Assembly: GCA_900319675.1 (NCBI GenBank)
Contig: ONPK01000008.1
Location: 1-34,699 of the forward strand
Direction: 5' to 3'
DNA: 34,699 nt
Source of the DNA: an uncultured Bacillota bacterium
GTDB taxonomy: Bacteria > Bacillota_I > Bacilli_A > Erysipelotrichales > Erysipelotrichaceae
Below the pieces are notes generated by a model. The model searched no databases. It saw only the letters and a list, made by a program, of their open reading frames with translations, and had not been told where the DNA came from. A program made the translations under genes and the position numbers. How positions within the stretch are numbered: the first letter of the stretch is position 1; every line of letters begins with the position of its first letter. Positions 24,255 through 32,894 of this stretch are shown piece by piece.

Positions 24255-25427
24255 TCAGCTCTCACCATTCAGCAGGCCATGCTGATATACGTATTGCTGA
24301 TACTGTTCCTCAATGGCCATTGCGGCGTCCTTGTACAGATTGTAGAAATCCGTACCGTCATGCCACGGGTCGGAGCTTCTGGCATACAGACCGTACTGAC
24401 CGGTCATTGAAGAGAAAGCCGGAAGCTTTCTGACGAAGCAGTATGGTGAATCCGTATCGCGGTTCTTATAGCTCTGGAATACATGAATGCCGGCCTCGGC
24501 ATAGTCATACAGCGTATCCTTGAGCTTGAACAGCGTGTCGACAAGCTGTCTGAATGCCGGCTGCTTTACGTTGTTATAGGCTGCGTTAAGCTGTTCGCTG
24601 ATTTTCGGGAAATCATTAATGCTCTTATTGAGGCTGTCTTCAATGTTGCCAAGGGCAATTATCTCTGAGAGATACTTGTCGATGATCTTCATGTCGGCAT
24701 GGAAACCAGGTTCCACACTGACTGTACCGTTGTTGTTGACAAAGAACCTCTGGTTGAGCTTTCTTACCTCAATTTCAAACTTGTAGTCTTCCTTTCTGGC
24801 TTCACGGTAACCCTGTTCCATGGCGCTTGAAGAAAGCTTCTGCACGTTTTCCCGGTAATACCTGGCCGATCTGACGGCGTTTCTGTTCAGCCCGCTCCAT
24901 GTCAGTTTGAAGAGTTCCGTTATCTTCGTCATGTCATCGTTGATCTTCTGATAAAGATCTTCCGTAAATCCTGCCCCGCCGAAGTTCAGAACTGATTCCT
25001 GATACTTGAATGATGCCTCAAGAGGAATCAGGCTCATGGCCCTGCCCAGTAATTCTATCGGTTCTACAAGGTGAACGGCATCCAGGAAGTAGCGGTGACA
25101 TTCGTCAAAGTACTTCTTCTGCTGAGCAGGCAGATTGCCGTACCATGGCGGGGCTGAATTCTCATCCTTGTAATCACCGAATATTGTCTTGTTGTTGGTA
25201 TAAAACAGTCTGACGAATCCGCTCATGGACAGATCTTCGGTAATCAGACGCGTGAAGTACTTCTCCGTATTGTCGTAGTCACTGTCAGCTACCATCTTTT
25301 CCAGAAGAGCTGAAACGTTGTTAATGCGCTTGATGAGTCCGGACAGCTCGTCCTTTATCTGACCTTCATCAAGGTTTTCCCATGAACTGGGATCAAATAC
25401 TTCATTGCTTAAATCCAATTCTGACAT
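24255..25427 (-). CDS. Unknown helical protein of 390 residues (operon partner of 25451-26737)
   Basis: I do not recognise this protein. It is cytosolic (no signal peptide or membrane helix), mostly alpha-helical and acidic at the N-terminus. Several Tyr/Arg-rich segments stand out (RSARYYRENVQ, EARKEDYKFEIEVRKLNQRFF), and the C-terminal part has YCFVRKLPAFSSMTGQYGLY. It has no nucleotide-binding or catalytic signature that I can see. It is the second gene of a two-gene transcript, 23 bases after the upstream gene, and ends at a strong terminator. A scaffold or substrate-binding role together with its neighbour is conceivable but not supported by a motif. Confidence 0.78.
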   Translation of the reverse strand: MSELDLSNEVFDPSSWENLDEGQIKDELSGLIKRINNVSALLEKMVADSDYDNTEKYFTRLITEDLSMSGFVRLFYTNNKTIFGDYKDENSAPPWYGNLPAQQKKYFDECHRYFLDAVHLVEPIELLGRAMSLIPLEASFKYQESVLNFGGAGFTEDLYQKINDDMTKITELFKLTWSGLNRNAVRSARYYRENVQKLSSSAMEQGYREARKEDYKFEIEVRKLNQRFFVNNNGTVSVEPGFHADMKIIDKYLSEIIALGNIEDSLNKSINDFPKISEQLNAAYNNVKQPAFRQLVDTLFKLKDTLYDYAEAGIHVFQSYKNRDTDSPYCFVRKLPAFSSMTGQYGLYARSSDPWHDGTDFYNLYKDAAMAIEEQYQQYVYQHGLLNGES

Positions 25428-25450
25428 AGTTCAATCTCCATCCCGATTCC

Positions 25451-26737
25451 CTAGAATCTGATCTCATAATCTCTTACGTACCATCTGCCGCCGTTGGTTC
25501 TGATGAGGTTCCTTCTCACCGGTGAACCAAGCTGCTTGCCGTTCTTGTCAAACGATACCGTCTGTACGGAAGCGTATTCGACCTTGTCACCGTATCTGGC
25601 AGCGATGCTCTTCTGATCTTCCGCTGACAGGAAGTAGGAATCCAGGCCGTTATTGTCATCATAGCCCTTGACTACCGTGATCTTGGTAGCTTCAGGAACA
25701 ACTTCAGCATGGACATATTCGCCATGGAATCTTTCCTGATGCAGATCCCAGTGATACAGCAGCAGTGATTCCTGTGTCGGATTCTGTCTTCTTTCCTCCT
25801 GTATGCACTCTGCGTACAGATCATAGTTCTTTTCCTTGATTGCCTGACGGAATATCTCGACGAGTCTTTCCGGAGTAACGTCTTCCGGTATGCTCTTTTC
25901 GGTATACCAGCCTTCCTTGATGGCTGCTACTTCATCTTCGCCTACGAAGTATCCGCTCTTCTCACTTTCCCTGTCGTAAATGCCCAGGACATGTCCCGGA
26001 ACATACAGGGCAACGGGCTCAACGATTGGCGCGTAAACTGGACCGCCAACCTTCTTTTCGCCGGCTTCCGGAATCTCCATGGTAATGTCGGTGATCTCGC
26101 CTAATATCGTCCACTTGTCAACTTCCATCATGGTGGTGTCAACCAGTCTTCTGTAACGCTTTACGGCCTCATACGGACCAAGCCATCTTCTGGTATCTAT
26201 CTCTACGAAATACATGCCGGTTGAACGCTTGCCTACCCATATGTATTCACCGGTAACACCCATGAACTGGTTGGCCGGATATCTGATCTCGTCAAGAATG
26301 ACATATTTGCCCTGATACTGTTCCAGAGGTTCCTTCCTGACTTCAGGAGCCGGGAAGACCTTATCCAGCATCTTGTCCTGATACTGGGCAATGAGGGCAT
26401 TCCAGCCATCCTCACTCTTCTTGGCATACATCTGTCTCAGGTTCTCTTCATTCTCCAGATAGACGATCATGTCATGGGTAATGGTAGTAAAATTACCTGT
26501 TGAGCCCATGATGCATGCTCTTGCCCTGTCAAACAGTTCCTTGACTCTCGGATCATCCGGCGCAAATTCATTGAGGATCATGATGCGTGACAGAGCGTCT
26601 TCCTTGGAACGGAAGATTCCCGATGCACCGTTGGCTCTCTTAACTTCATTTTCAAATTCCTTCAGATACATCTCAGCCTGCTGAATGCGCATGGTGAGAT
26701 TCGCTGCGTTCACAGTGAAAGTAGTTTTATCGACCAT
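25451..26737 (-). CDS. Unknown multidomain cytosolic protein of 428 residues
   Basis: No family was recognised. The sequence divides into three parts: a helical region (about 1-135), a beta-rich middle with SH3-like phrases (YIWVGKRSTGMYFVEIDTRRWLG is split by short loops; YVPGHVLGIYD), and a C-terminal part (about 290-428). The C-terminal part ends in strands like those of NTF2/SnoaL-like domains, closing with GGRWYVRDYEIRF. There is no signal peptide or membrane helix. AAAGGA precedes ATG 26737, and a perfect -10 lies at 26767-26772. It is co-transcribed with the 390-residue protein gene, which suggests the two act together. The NTF2-like reading is a guess from strand pattern. Confidence 0.78.
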   Translation of the reverse strand: MVDKTTFTVNAANLTMRIQQAEMYLKEFENEVKRANGASGIFRSKEDALSRIMILNEFAPDDPRVKELFDRARACIMGSTGNFTTITHDMIVYLENEENLRQMYAKKSEDGWNALIAQYQDKMLDKVFPAPEVRKEPLEQYQGKYVILDEIRYPANQFMGVTGEYIWVGKRSTGMYFVEIDTRRWLGPYEAVKRYRRLVDTTMMEVDKWTILGEITDITMEIPEAGEKKVGGPVYAPIVEPVALYVPGHVLGIYDRESEKSGYFVGEDEVAAIKEGWYTEKSIPEDVTPERLVEIFRQAIKEKNYDLYAECIQEERRQNPTQESLLLYHWDLHQERFHGEYVHAEVVPEATKITVVKGYDDNNGLDSYFLSAEDQKSIAARYGDKVEYASVQTVSFDKNGKQLGSPVRRNLIRTNGGRWYVRDYEIRF

Positions 26738-29434: not shown

Positions 29435-29522
29435 TGGCGAAGGATATGAGATTCGAACTCATGGTAGCTTTCACTACGCCACCTTTCCAAGATGGTGCCT
29501 TAATCCGCTCGGCCAATCCTTC
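29435..29522 (-). tRNA. tRNA-Ser(GGA)
   Basis: This 88-base type II tRNA has acceptor stem GAAGGAT/ATCCTTC and anticodon stem CCATC/GGTGG with loop TTGGAAA, giving anticodon GGA. A long variable arm carries GTAG...CTAC, the T arm is ATGAG-TTCGAAT-CTCAT, and CCA is encoded. It reads serine UCC and UCU. A possible -10 (TACAAT) lies at 29532-29537. A T-run follows the CCA but no hairpin, so the transcript may continue into the sortase gene. Confidence 0.95.
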
Positions 29523-29652: not shown

Positions 29653-29709
29653 ATATGTATTGGAAACAACATCATCTCAGATGAATCGGATAATAAGGAG
29701 GTGCCTTTC

Positions 29710-31380
29710 ATGTTAACTGACATTGAAATCGCTCAGAGCTGTGAAAAGAAGAACATTGCCGAAATAGCTGAGGAACTTGGCATACCGGAAGAGTATGTTG
29801 AGATGTACGGCAGATATAAGGCCAAGATTGATTACAGATTTCTCAAGGAAAACGCTGATAAGAAGGACGGAAAGCTGATCCTGGTAACCGCCATCAACCC
29901 TACCCCTGCCGGTGAGGGAAAGACGACGACTACCGTTGGCCTGTCCGATGCTTTAAGAAAGATTGGAAAGAAGTCCGTAGTTGCCTTAAGAGAACCGTCA
30001 CTTGGACCGGTTTTCGGCATCAAGGGCGGAGCTGCCGGCGGCGGTTATGCTCAGGTAGTCCCAATGGAGGACATCAACCTGCACTTTACCGGTGACTTCC
30101 ATGCCATCGGCGCTGCCAATAACCTTCTGGCTGCCATGCTTGACAACCACATTCAGCAAGGCAACTCCCTCAACATCGATCCGCGAAGAATAACCTGGAA
30201 GCGTGCCGTTGACATGAACGACAGACAGCTAAGAAACATAATAGACGGTCTGGGTGCCAGAAGTGACGGCACACCGCGTCAGGATGGCTTTGACATAACG
30301 GTAGCTTCCGAAGTAATGGCCGTTCTGTGTCTGGCATCTGACATTCCTGACCTCAAGAGCAGACTGGCAAGAATAGTCGTCGGATATACCTATGACAATC
30401 AGCCGGTAACAGCCGGTGACCTGAAGGCTCAGGGAGCCATGGCTGCCCTGCTTAAGGATGCATTGAAGCCTAATCTGGTTCAGACTCTTGAGCATACCCC
30501 TGCTTTCATCCATGGCGGACCGTTCGCCAACATTGCCCATGGCTGTAATTCAGTTACAGCTACCAGAATGGCTCTGAAACTTGGTGAATACGCCGTAACC
30601 GAGGCCGGTTTCGGTGCTGACCTGGGTGCCGAGAAATTCCTGGACATCAAGTGCCGCATGGCAGGACTGAAGCCGAATGCTGTCGTCATCGTCGCTACAG
30701 TCAGAGCTCTGAAACACAATGGCGGCGTCAATAAGGTCGATTTGGGCAAGGAAAACCTTGAAGCCCTGGAGAAAGGAATGCCAAACCTCCTGCAGCACGT
30801 GGATAACATTACCAACGTATATAAACTGCCTTGCGTAGTTGCCATAAACAGATTCCCTACTGATACGGAAGCTGAACTTAAGCTCATAGAAGACAGATGC
30901 CGTGAACTTGGCGTAAACGTTGCCTTAAGCGAAGTATGGGCCAAGGGCGGTGAAGGCGGAGTAAAACTGGCTGAAGAAGTCGTAAGACTCTGTGAACAGC
31001 CAAATGATTTCACCTACAGCTATGACCTGAACATGAGTATCATGGAAAAGCTTGAAACCATTGCCAGAAGGATCTATCACGCTGACGGCGTTGATCTGGT
31101 AGGCAACGCCTCCAAGCAATTGATCCAGCTGGAATCAATGGGCTTCTCGGATCTGCCGATATGCATGGCCAAGACCCAGTATTCATTTACTGACGATCCA
31201 AACAAGCTGGGTGCACCGCGCAACTTCCGCATTTCCGTCAGAAACCTGAAGGTATCTGCCGGAGCCGGATTCATCGTTGCACTGACCGGCGACATCATGA
31301 CCATGCCGGGACTGCCGAAGGTACCGGCAGCCGAAAAGATCGATGTCGATGAAAACGGCGTTATCACTGGCCTGTTCTAG
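29710..31380 (+). CDS. fhs: Formate--tetrahydrofolate ligase
   Basis: ATG 29710 follows AGGAGGT (29697-29703) by 6 bases; the earlier GTG at 29701 is part of the ribosome site. The 556-residue length is standard. The enzyme joins formate to THF with ATP to give 10-formyl-THF, or runs backward to make ATP and formate. Visible marks are the start [16 protein letters not shown], the ATP loop [39 protein letters not shown], the [16 protein letters not shown] folate-site motif and the late [14 protein letters not shown] end. It heads a three-gene one-carbon operon with fchA 10 bases downstream. No other Wood-Ljungdahl gene is present, so the operon most likely balances formyl-, methenyl- and methylene-THF pools. 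Confidence 0.97.
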
Positions 31381-31390
31381 GGAGTTAACC

Positions 31391-32008
31391 ATGTTCAATA
31401 AGACAATTGAGGAATTTACCCGGCTTACTGCATCCAAGGATCCCGTACCTGGAGGCGGAGGCGTAAGCGGTCTGACCGGAGCGCTGGCTGCCTCTTTGGC
31501 AGAGATGGTCACCAGTCTGACGACGGGAAAGAAGAAATATGCTGAATACGAAGAGGAAATACAGGCCATCATGCAGGAAGCTGATTCACTTAGGGCATCT
31601 CTTCTTAACAGTATCAATGAAGACGCTGAGGCTTTTGCCCCTCTTGCAAAGGCTTATTCAATGGATAAGGATGCCGAAGGCTACGCAGCAAGGCTTGAGA
31701 GTTGCCTTAGAGAAGCTGCCAGCTCCCCTTTCCACATTCTTAAGCTGTGTACCAGAGTAATAGAACTTGATGAAAGACTTGCAGTAATCGGATCAAAAAT
31801 TGCCGTATCAGATGCAGCGACATCCGTAATGCTCGCTCACGGTGCCTTATACGGCGCCATGATCAACATCAGGGTCAATACCCGTCTCATGAAAGACAGG
31901 GAATATGCTGAAAGGCTGGATAATGAAGCTGAGGATCTCCTAAGGAAATATGCCAGAAGAGCTCTTAAGTGCTATAAAAACATAGAAAAGAGGCTGTCAG
32001 ATGGCTGA
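31391..32008 (+). CDS. fchA: Methenyl-THF cyclohydrolase / formimino-THF cyclodeaminase
   Basis: ATG 31391 is taken, with a GGGAG site overlapping the fhs stop; an earlier in-frame start would lie inside fhs. The 205-residue all-helical protein matches FchA/FTCD-C, with the glycine-rich DPVPGGGGVSGLTGALAASL and the GKKKYAEYEEE helix. It interconverts 10-formyl-THF and 5,10-methenyl-THF, or deaminates formimino-THF. No histidine- or purine-fermentation formimino transferase is nearby, so cyclohydrolase is the more likely job. The position between fhs and folD, and an 8-base overlap with folD, place it as the middle step of the pathway. Confidence 0.92.
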   Translation: MFNKTIEEFTRLTASKDPVPGGGGVSGLTGALAASLAEMVTSLTTGKKKYAEYEEEIQAIMQEADSLRASLLNSINEDAEAFAPLAKAYSMDKDAEGYAARLESCLREAASSPFHILKLCTRVIELDERLAVIGSKIAVSDAATSVMLAHGALYGAMINIRVNTRLMKDREYAERLDNEAEDLLRKYARRALKCYKNIEKRLSDG

Positions 32009-32864
32009 GATCCTGAGAGGCAAGGACGTCGCTGCCTTCATAAATGAAAGAAGCAGAAAAGACGTTGAAACATTAAAAGAAAAAGGAATAACCCCTGCCC
32101 TGGCCATTGTCAGGGTTGGCGAAAAAGAAAATGACATTGCCTATGAGAGAAATGCCATCAAAAGATGCGACTCCATCGGTGTAAGGACCATCAGCGTCGT
32201 ATTGCCCGCAGACATCCCAAAGGATGACTTCTATGACAGACTTGATGAGCTGAATAACGATGATGAGATCCATGGGATCCTGTTATTAAGACCGGTACCA
32301 AAGCATCTGGACAATGAAAAAGCCAGGCAGTACATCAGGCCTGAAAAGGACGTTGACGGGTGTACGGACGGTTCTTTAGCCGGGGTATTTACCGGAACAG
32401 CCAGAGGCTTTGCTCCCTGCACTGCTCAGGCCGCAGTCGAAATACTTGATTATTACGGCATTGACGTAACGGGAAAGAACACCGTCATTCTGGGACGTTC
32501 ACTGGTAGTCGGCAGACCGCTGGCAATGTTATTGATGAACAGAAACGCAACGATAACGATCTGTCACCGGAAGACAGTCAATGTCAGTGAAATAGCCCGC
32601 AAGGCAGAAATACTGATATCGGCCATGGGTGAAATCGAAGCCGTAACGGCTGACTATCTGAGTCCCGGACAGACCGTGATAGACGTCGGCATCACCTACA
32701 GCGAAGAAAAGCAGAAGATCTGCGGAGATGTTCTGTTTGAGGAGGCTGAGCCGATCGTAGATAAGATAACTCCGGTACCGGGAGGTGTCGGATCGGTAAC
32801 GACTTCAGTACTTGTATCTCACGTAGTTGAAGCCGCCAAGAGAGCAAATGAAAGCCGCGAATGA
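32001..32864 (+). CDS. folD: Methylene-THF dehydrogenase of the FolD family, cyclohydrolase residues missing
   Basis: This 287-residue protein is FolD by length and fold. The folate domain has PEKDVDG (Asp119), the NAD(P) domain has VILGRSLVVGRPLAMLL and ICHRKT, and the end has TPVPGGVGSVTT. It should oxidise 5,10-methylene-THF to methenyl-THF. The cyclohydrolase site differs from the family: Tyr48 is kept, but the Lys four residues later (Lys56 in human MTHFD1) is Ala52. The Gln of the usual VQLPLP (Gln100) is Leu96 in ILLLRPVP. It is therefore probably a dehydrogenase only, with FchA supplying the other step. Lys54 and Arg97 lie near these positions and could in principle compensate. ATG 32001 overlaps fchA by 8 bases. 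Confidence 0.93.
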   Translation: MAEILRGKDVAAFINERSRKDVETLKEKGITPALAIVRVGEKENDIAYERNAIKRCDSIGVRTISVVLPADIPKDDFYDRLDELNNDDEIHGILLLRPVPKHLDNEKARQYIRPEKDVDGCTDGSLAGVFTGTARGFAPCTAQAAVEILDYYGIDVTGKNTVILGRSLVVGRPLAMLLMNRNATITICHRKTVNVSEIARKAEILISAMGEIEAVTADYLSPGQTVIDVGITYSEEKQKICGDVLFEEAEPIVDKITPVPGGVGSVTTSVLVSHVVEAAKRANESRE

Positions 32865-32888
32865 AATGAATTGAATCGCGGCTTTTTT
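32851..32888 (+). terminator. Terminator of the one-carbon operon
   Basis: A 10-bp stem AAAGCCGCGA/TCGCGGCTTT (32851-32860 with 32876-32885), a 15-base loop and a six-T run ending at 32888. The 5' arm lies inside the last codons of folD, and the folD stop is in the loop. ptsI converges from the other side. Confidence 0.88.
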
Positions 32889-32894
32889 CTTTTA

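Follow-up and report, generated by a model that had tools for sequence, protein, structure and literature searches.

A FolD protein without the cyclohydrolase lysine and glutamine, predicted to act as a dehydrogenase only, is encoded with Fhs and FchA in an uncultured Erysipelotrichaceae bacterium

The 34,699-nucleotide stretch of DNA analysed here (the window) carries a folD gene that raises the question of whether its product still catalyses both reactions of a bifunctional FolD enzyme, or whether the cyclohydrolase step has been left to the product of the neighbouring fchA gene. The latter had been proposed in the initial annotation, which described a division of labour between a dehydrogenase-only FolD and FchA. 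The folD gene (32001-32864, + strand) is an intact open reading frame of 287 amino acids, and its product belongs to the FolD/MTHFD superfamily, since both the catalytic domain (PF00763, 111 bits) and the NAD(P)-binding domain (PF02882, 178 bits) were found above the respective cut-offs.

When the protein was aligned by phmmer with human MTHFD1 (1a4i), the active-site residues Y52, K56, Q100 and D125 of the latter were matched by Y48, A52, L96 and D119, and the stretch from Tyr48 to Leu96 was free of gaps both in this alignment and in that with Thermus thermophilus FolD (6v6y). The same columns were obtained by MAFFT for E. coli FolD, where Y50, K54, Q98 and D121 correspond to Y, A, L and D; these E. 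coli columns agree with the alignments to solved structures. Thus, the conserved Tyr48 is encoded at 32142-32144 (+), whereas the column of the cyclohydrolase lysine is occupied by Ala52 (32154-32156, +) and that of the glutamine by Leu96 (32286-32288, +). An AlphaFold model of the protein (pLDDT 96.2) superimposed on E. coli FolD 1b0a with a Z score of 39.1 and a deviation of 1.6 Å over 285 residues, and on bifunctional FolDs in general with Z scores of about 37-41 and deviations of mostly 1.3-1.9 Å over about 280 residues. As judged from the aligned sequences, the register of the active site is unambiguous, and the residue assignments of the initial annotation, including Ala and Leu in the columns of human Lys56 and Gln100, were borne out by phmmer, MAFFT and structure superposition alike. 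Of the four residues of the bifunctional enzymes, the tyrosine and the aspartate are therefore present and the lysine and the glutamine are replaced. Human Ser49, put forward as a third member of the cyclohydrolase site (PMC6443876), is likewise replaced, by Asp45. All 25 listed NCBI models matching the protein carry bifunctional names, and none of the equivalog or subfamily cut-offs for bifunctional FolD was reached among them (best score 261.5 bits, against a cut-off of 421).

The consequences of such replacements can be anticipated from work on E. coli FolD, in which the K54N substitution made cyclohydrolase activity undetectable and left about 19% of dehydrogenase activity, while Q98H left about 1% and about 8%, respectively (PMC5688156). 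The lysine has been assigned as the general acid-base and the glutamine as the residue that positions it (PMC3338484). By this reasoning, the combination of Ala and Leu would be expected to abolish cyclohydrolase activity and to spare the dehydrogenase if the surroundings of the active site have adapted; some compensation has to be assumed, since the E. coli mutants lost dehydrogenase activity as well. That loss, most severe in Q98H, is what might suggest that the dehydrogenase has also been lost or altered here, through decay of the gene or recruitment to a new role. We regard this as highly improbable, because the reading frame is intact, the Tyr, the Asp and the nucleotide-binding motifs are conserved, identity to most of the closest relatives is 54-68%, the FolD fold is predicted with confidence, and this is the sole FolD copy found in the genome: no second, canonical FolD was detected in the assembly, which is 89% complete.

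The gene context is consistent with a pathway shared among separate enzymes. The fchA gene (31391-32008, +) encodes a member of the methenyl-THF cyclohydrolase family FTCD_C (PF04961, 184 bits, above the cut-off), so that a separate cyclohydrolase gene is present in the genome, and its 3' end overlaps the start of folD by exactly the 8 bases given in the initial annotation (32001-32008). The fchA-folD pair described there is real; what had been missed is the first gene of the operon, fhs, which encodes formate--tetrahydrofolate ligase (29710-31380, +; PF01268, 922 bits) and scores 952.6 bits against the equivalog model NF010030, well above its cut-off of 652. The fhs start is probably the ATG at 29710, which is preceded by a ribosome-binding site, AAGGAGG, at 29695-29701; the listed GTG start at 29701 is disfavoured because it falls within that site. 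The three genes follow one another in the same orientation (+ strand), with 10 bases between the end of fhs and the start of fchA. A GC-rich hairpin followed by a run of T at the end of folD (32854-32889, +), read by eye, is the probable terminator of the operon; it is absent from the output of the terminator scan, and its loop exceeds the length range of the scanner. Beyond folD lies a convergent gene for a PEP-utilising enzyme of the PTS enzyme I type. No riboswitch was found upstream of fhs in Rfam at gathering scores. On the opposite strand, between a sortase gene and the operon, there is a tRNA gene (29438-29522, -; 51.5 bits), and further away in the window two adjoining long open reading frames of 390 and 428 amino acids (24255-26737, -) gave no Pfam match.

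With fhs at its head, the operon would make up a complete module connecting formate and methylene-THF, in which 10-formyl-THF could be obtained from formate as well. FolD is very probably restricted to the dehydrogenase reaction, as predicted from its sequence, and dependent on FchA for the cyclohydrolase step within this three-enzyme module. The activities, flux direction and cofactor that we infer would be as follows: Fhs would join formate and THF into 10-formyl-THF, FchA would interconvert 10-formyl-THF and methenyl-THF, and FolD would interconvert methenyl-THF and methylene-THF with NAD(P)H. As its fold and nucleotide domain are retained, together with the Tyr and Asp that bind the substrate, FolD should remain a dehydrogenase; lacking the catalytic lysine and the glutamine that positions it, it should release methenyl-THF unhydrolysed, so that the cell would rely on FchA. 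Such dependence need not be strict, as methenyl-THF is able to hydrolyse spontaneously (PMC5688156). Neither a Formyl_trans_N domain (Fmt, PurN, PurU) nor MTHFR was detected in the 89% complete genome. If the absence of Fmt, PurN and MTHFR is real, it would favour a flux that carries formate into methylene-THF for the synthesis of serine and thymidylate, or a reverse flux in which Fhs yields ATP, rather than the provision of formyl groups for Fmt and PurN; in the case of Formyl_trans_N, it would also mean that initiator Met-tRNA is unformylated and that the third step of purine synthesis proceeds by another route.

If FolD of this type depends on FchA, the two should occur together, and the initial annotation had called for a survey of whether lysine-less FolD is always accompanied by fchA. 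For this purpose, 149 genomes were drawn from the phylum that holds Blautia and Clostridia; FolD was found in 147 of them and its catalytic domain typed, with an FTCD_C gene counted as present above 100 bits and genomes bearing both kinds of FolD counted as Lys+Gln. An FTCD_C gene was present in all 31 genomes whose FolD is solely lysine-less (in 21 of them no more than 2 kb from folD) and in all 26 in which the lysine is kept and the glutamine is changed to glutamate (within 2 kb in 19), against 26 of the 90 genomes with Lys+Gln FolD, in one of which it lay within 2 kb. Two apparent exceptions were rejected: in G304, seemingly a Lys+Gln FolD adjoining fchA, the adjoining copy is the second FolD of the genome and carries the Gln-to-Glu change, and in G323, seemingly lysine-less without fchA, the FolD in question has a tandem partner in the same genome, which is Y-K-Q-D. 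The difference in FTCD_C presence between lysine-less and Lys+Gln genomes gave p = 2e-13 in Fisher's test, which ignores kinship. In the FolD gene tree, 4-7 changes of state suffice and the supported branches are compatible with one origin, and a phylogenetically independent comparison offered only 1-2 supported independent pairs and no significance. The association between FolD residues and fchA is thus strong by counts and weak by independent events, its independent origins being few.

The same pattern was observed closer to the source genome. Among 39 relatives with folD, an FTCD_C gene accompanied all 13 lysine-less FolDs and 2 of the 26 Lys+Gln ones, in both of which it lies on a contig other than that of folD. 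When about 85,000 species genomes were scanned by sequence pattern, at least 592 matches were obtained, at least 555 of them confirmed as relatives; all 80 of the best of these lack both Lys and Gln, a count to be read with the caveat that the scan patterns partly select for this loss. That the loss is not due to chance is indicated by these relatives and by the unbiased 147-genome survey, in which it tracks fchA. These 80 relatives come mainly from Lachnospiraceae, Oscillospiraceae, Erysipelotrichaceae and Coriobacteriaceae, with one Treponema MAG. The fchA gene lies directly upstream on the same strand in 62 of them, and 17 of the remaining 18 have an FTCD_C gene elsewhere in the genome; in the one exception, the lysine-less MAG L082, none was found. 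General divergence was also considered as the cause of the loss. In the phylum of the source genome, 26 FolDs of low score, for the most part from small Mollicute-type genomes, keep both Lys and Gln and are not accompanied by an FTCD_C gene, so that drift alone does not explain it, and all four genomes found there with lysine-less FolD (G103, G126, G196 and G207) have an FTCD_C gene. Within the same genus the order fhs-fchA-folD is conserved. One member (G004, 83% complete) has a canonical Y-K-Q-D FolD, with no FTCD_C gene found, which may imply that fchA and lysine-less folD are swapped as a unit, between one-enzyme and two-enzyme systems. In another (G001, with lysine-less FolD), fchA at C5:4046-4573 contains an in-frame TAA, reflecting either a sequencing error or a broken gene; in the latter case it would be an informative exception.

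One may ask, nevertheless, whether FolD could have remained bifunctional by means of Lys54, Arg97 or Asp45, FchA being then redundant or a formimino-THF cyclodeaminase. The first two residues had been named in the initial annotation as those that might take the catalytic position, and neither was found there by alignment register or conservation. Lys54 falls in the column of E. coli K56, where bifunctional enzymes have a second basic residue in any case (Lys or Arg in 90 of the 94 Lys+Gln rows sampled). Arg97, common among the closest relatives, is missing from most other lysine-less FolDs, since it occurs in just 8 of 50 sampled rows, which otherwise contain mostly Met, Ala, Leu or Ser. In favour of Asp45, which stands in place of the usual Ser, it is found in 80 of 80 named relatives. 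As to FchA, the FTCD_C family also includes cyclodeaminases, and against NF045657 the protein scored 157.5 bits over its full length (E 3e-46), below the equivalog cut-off of 275; the choice between the two activities therefore rests on gene context and on the best solved match, 7vg4, a methenyltetrahydrofolate cyclohydrolase (E 1e-33). This match, together with the tracking of fchA presence and adjacency by the loss of Lys and Gln, makes a FolD that is still bifunctional improbable.

The purpose of the split is a separate problem. The initial annotation had suggested that it serves separate control of the formyl- and methenyl-THF pools, or saves methenyl-THF for another user, and two distinct proteins would indeed allow separate pools. 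However, the 8-base overlap suggests coupled translation, which argues mildly against independent control, and the adjacency of fchA and folD in most relatives points to their co-production; we therefore find little to recommend this explanation. The division of labour between a dehydrogenase-only FolD and FchA is well supported, at the level of sequence, by the residues, their register, the single FolD copy and the co-occurrence across genomes, but it is not peculiar to the source genome.

Indeed, the combination of a monofunctional MTHF dehydrogenase and a separate cyclohydrolase is already described as a kind, and the FolD studied here is, by sequence, a member of a large conserved subfamily of gut Bacillota. 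According to what is said to have been found by Aluri and co-workers, C. perfringens FolD is a monofunctional dehydrogenase and FchA a cyclohydrolase, both being required to replace E. coli FolD. A separate FchA in some microorganisms is mentioned in PMC7219735, and there, as in PMC11559097, the study of C. perfringens FolD, FchA and Fhs is cited (Aluri et al. 2016, Microbiology 162:145). The likeness to C. perfringens lies in the same set of three proteins. Peptostreptococcus productus is now placed in Blautia, and two Blautia FolDs (L085 and L104; 56-57% identity) are lysine-less, with fchA upstream. The P. productus dehydrogenase (Wohlfarth et al. 1991), an assayed enzyme, is termed monofunctional in PMC6443876; the FolD considered here, a predicted dehydrogenase, is likened to it through these Blautia relatives. 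Our protein has the fold (Z about 39) and the nucleotide domain of bifunctional FolDs and of the DC domain of human MTHFD1, along with their Tyr and Asp, and it differs from them in having Ala, Leu and Asp in place of Lys, Gln and human Ser49. Yeast MTD1 (1edz), a monofunctional NAD-dependent dehydrogenase, has the same fold (Z 29.1) and reportedly likewise lacks the cyclohydrolase Lys and Gln, but it is eukaryotic, is just 23% identical and is not known to have an FchA partner. Clusters of fhs, fchA and folD occur in related anaerobes, e.g. Tepidanaerobacter (PMC3584212), and such clostridial Wood-Ljungdahl clusters have the same gene content as ours; unlike them, the operon described here gives no indication of acetogenesis, as MTHFR was not detected in the genome.

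It is tempting to see in the state of the two residues a simple genomic rule for monofunctionality of FolD in Bacillota, under which a large proportion of gut Firmicutes would be wrongly labelled as having a bifunctional enzyme; to our minds the case for and against this is evenly balanced. Under such a rule, FolDs in which the lysine is lost (to Ala, Leu, Ile, Gln, Met or Val) or the glutamine changed to glutamate would be dehydrogenase-only and paired with FchA, and, as both classes are so paired, several routes of substitution would lead to the same split. The Gln-to-Glu class, which keeps the lysine, comprises G232, G233, G276, G333 and 22 other genomes. A residue rule across genomes, including this class, was not found stated in the open-access literature. 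In metabolic models of gut Firmicutes, the bifunctional names of the matching NCBI models would lead to a wrongly assigned reaction, an error that a check of two residues and of fchA presence would correct, and the pattern provides natural variants for studying the separation of the two FolD reactions. Moreover, K54 is the residue through which E. coli FolD is bound by the natural product carolacton (PMC5688156), and lysine-less FolDs would therefore be expected to show insensitivity at the level of the target. A different situation is met in G255, G283, G295, G323, G331, G350, G361 and similar genomes, which contain pairs of FolD copies, often in tandem and mostly without a strong FTCD_C gene, one being Y-K-Q-D and the other Y-Q-Q-E or Y-Q-H-E; the second copy, in which Gln takes the place of the Lys and Glu that of the Asp, may have another role.
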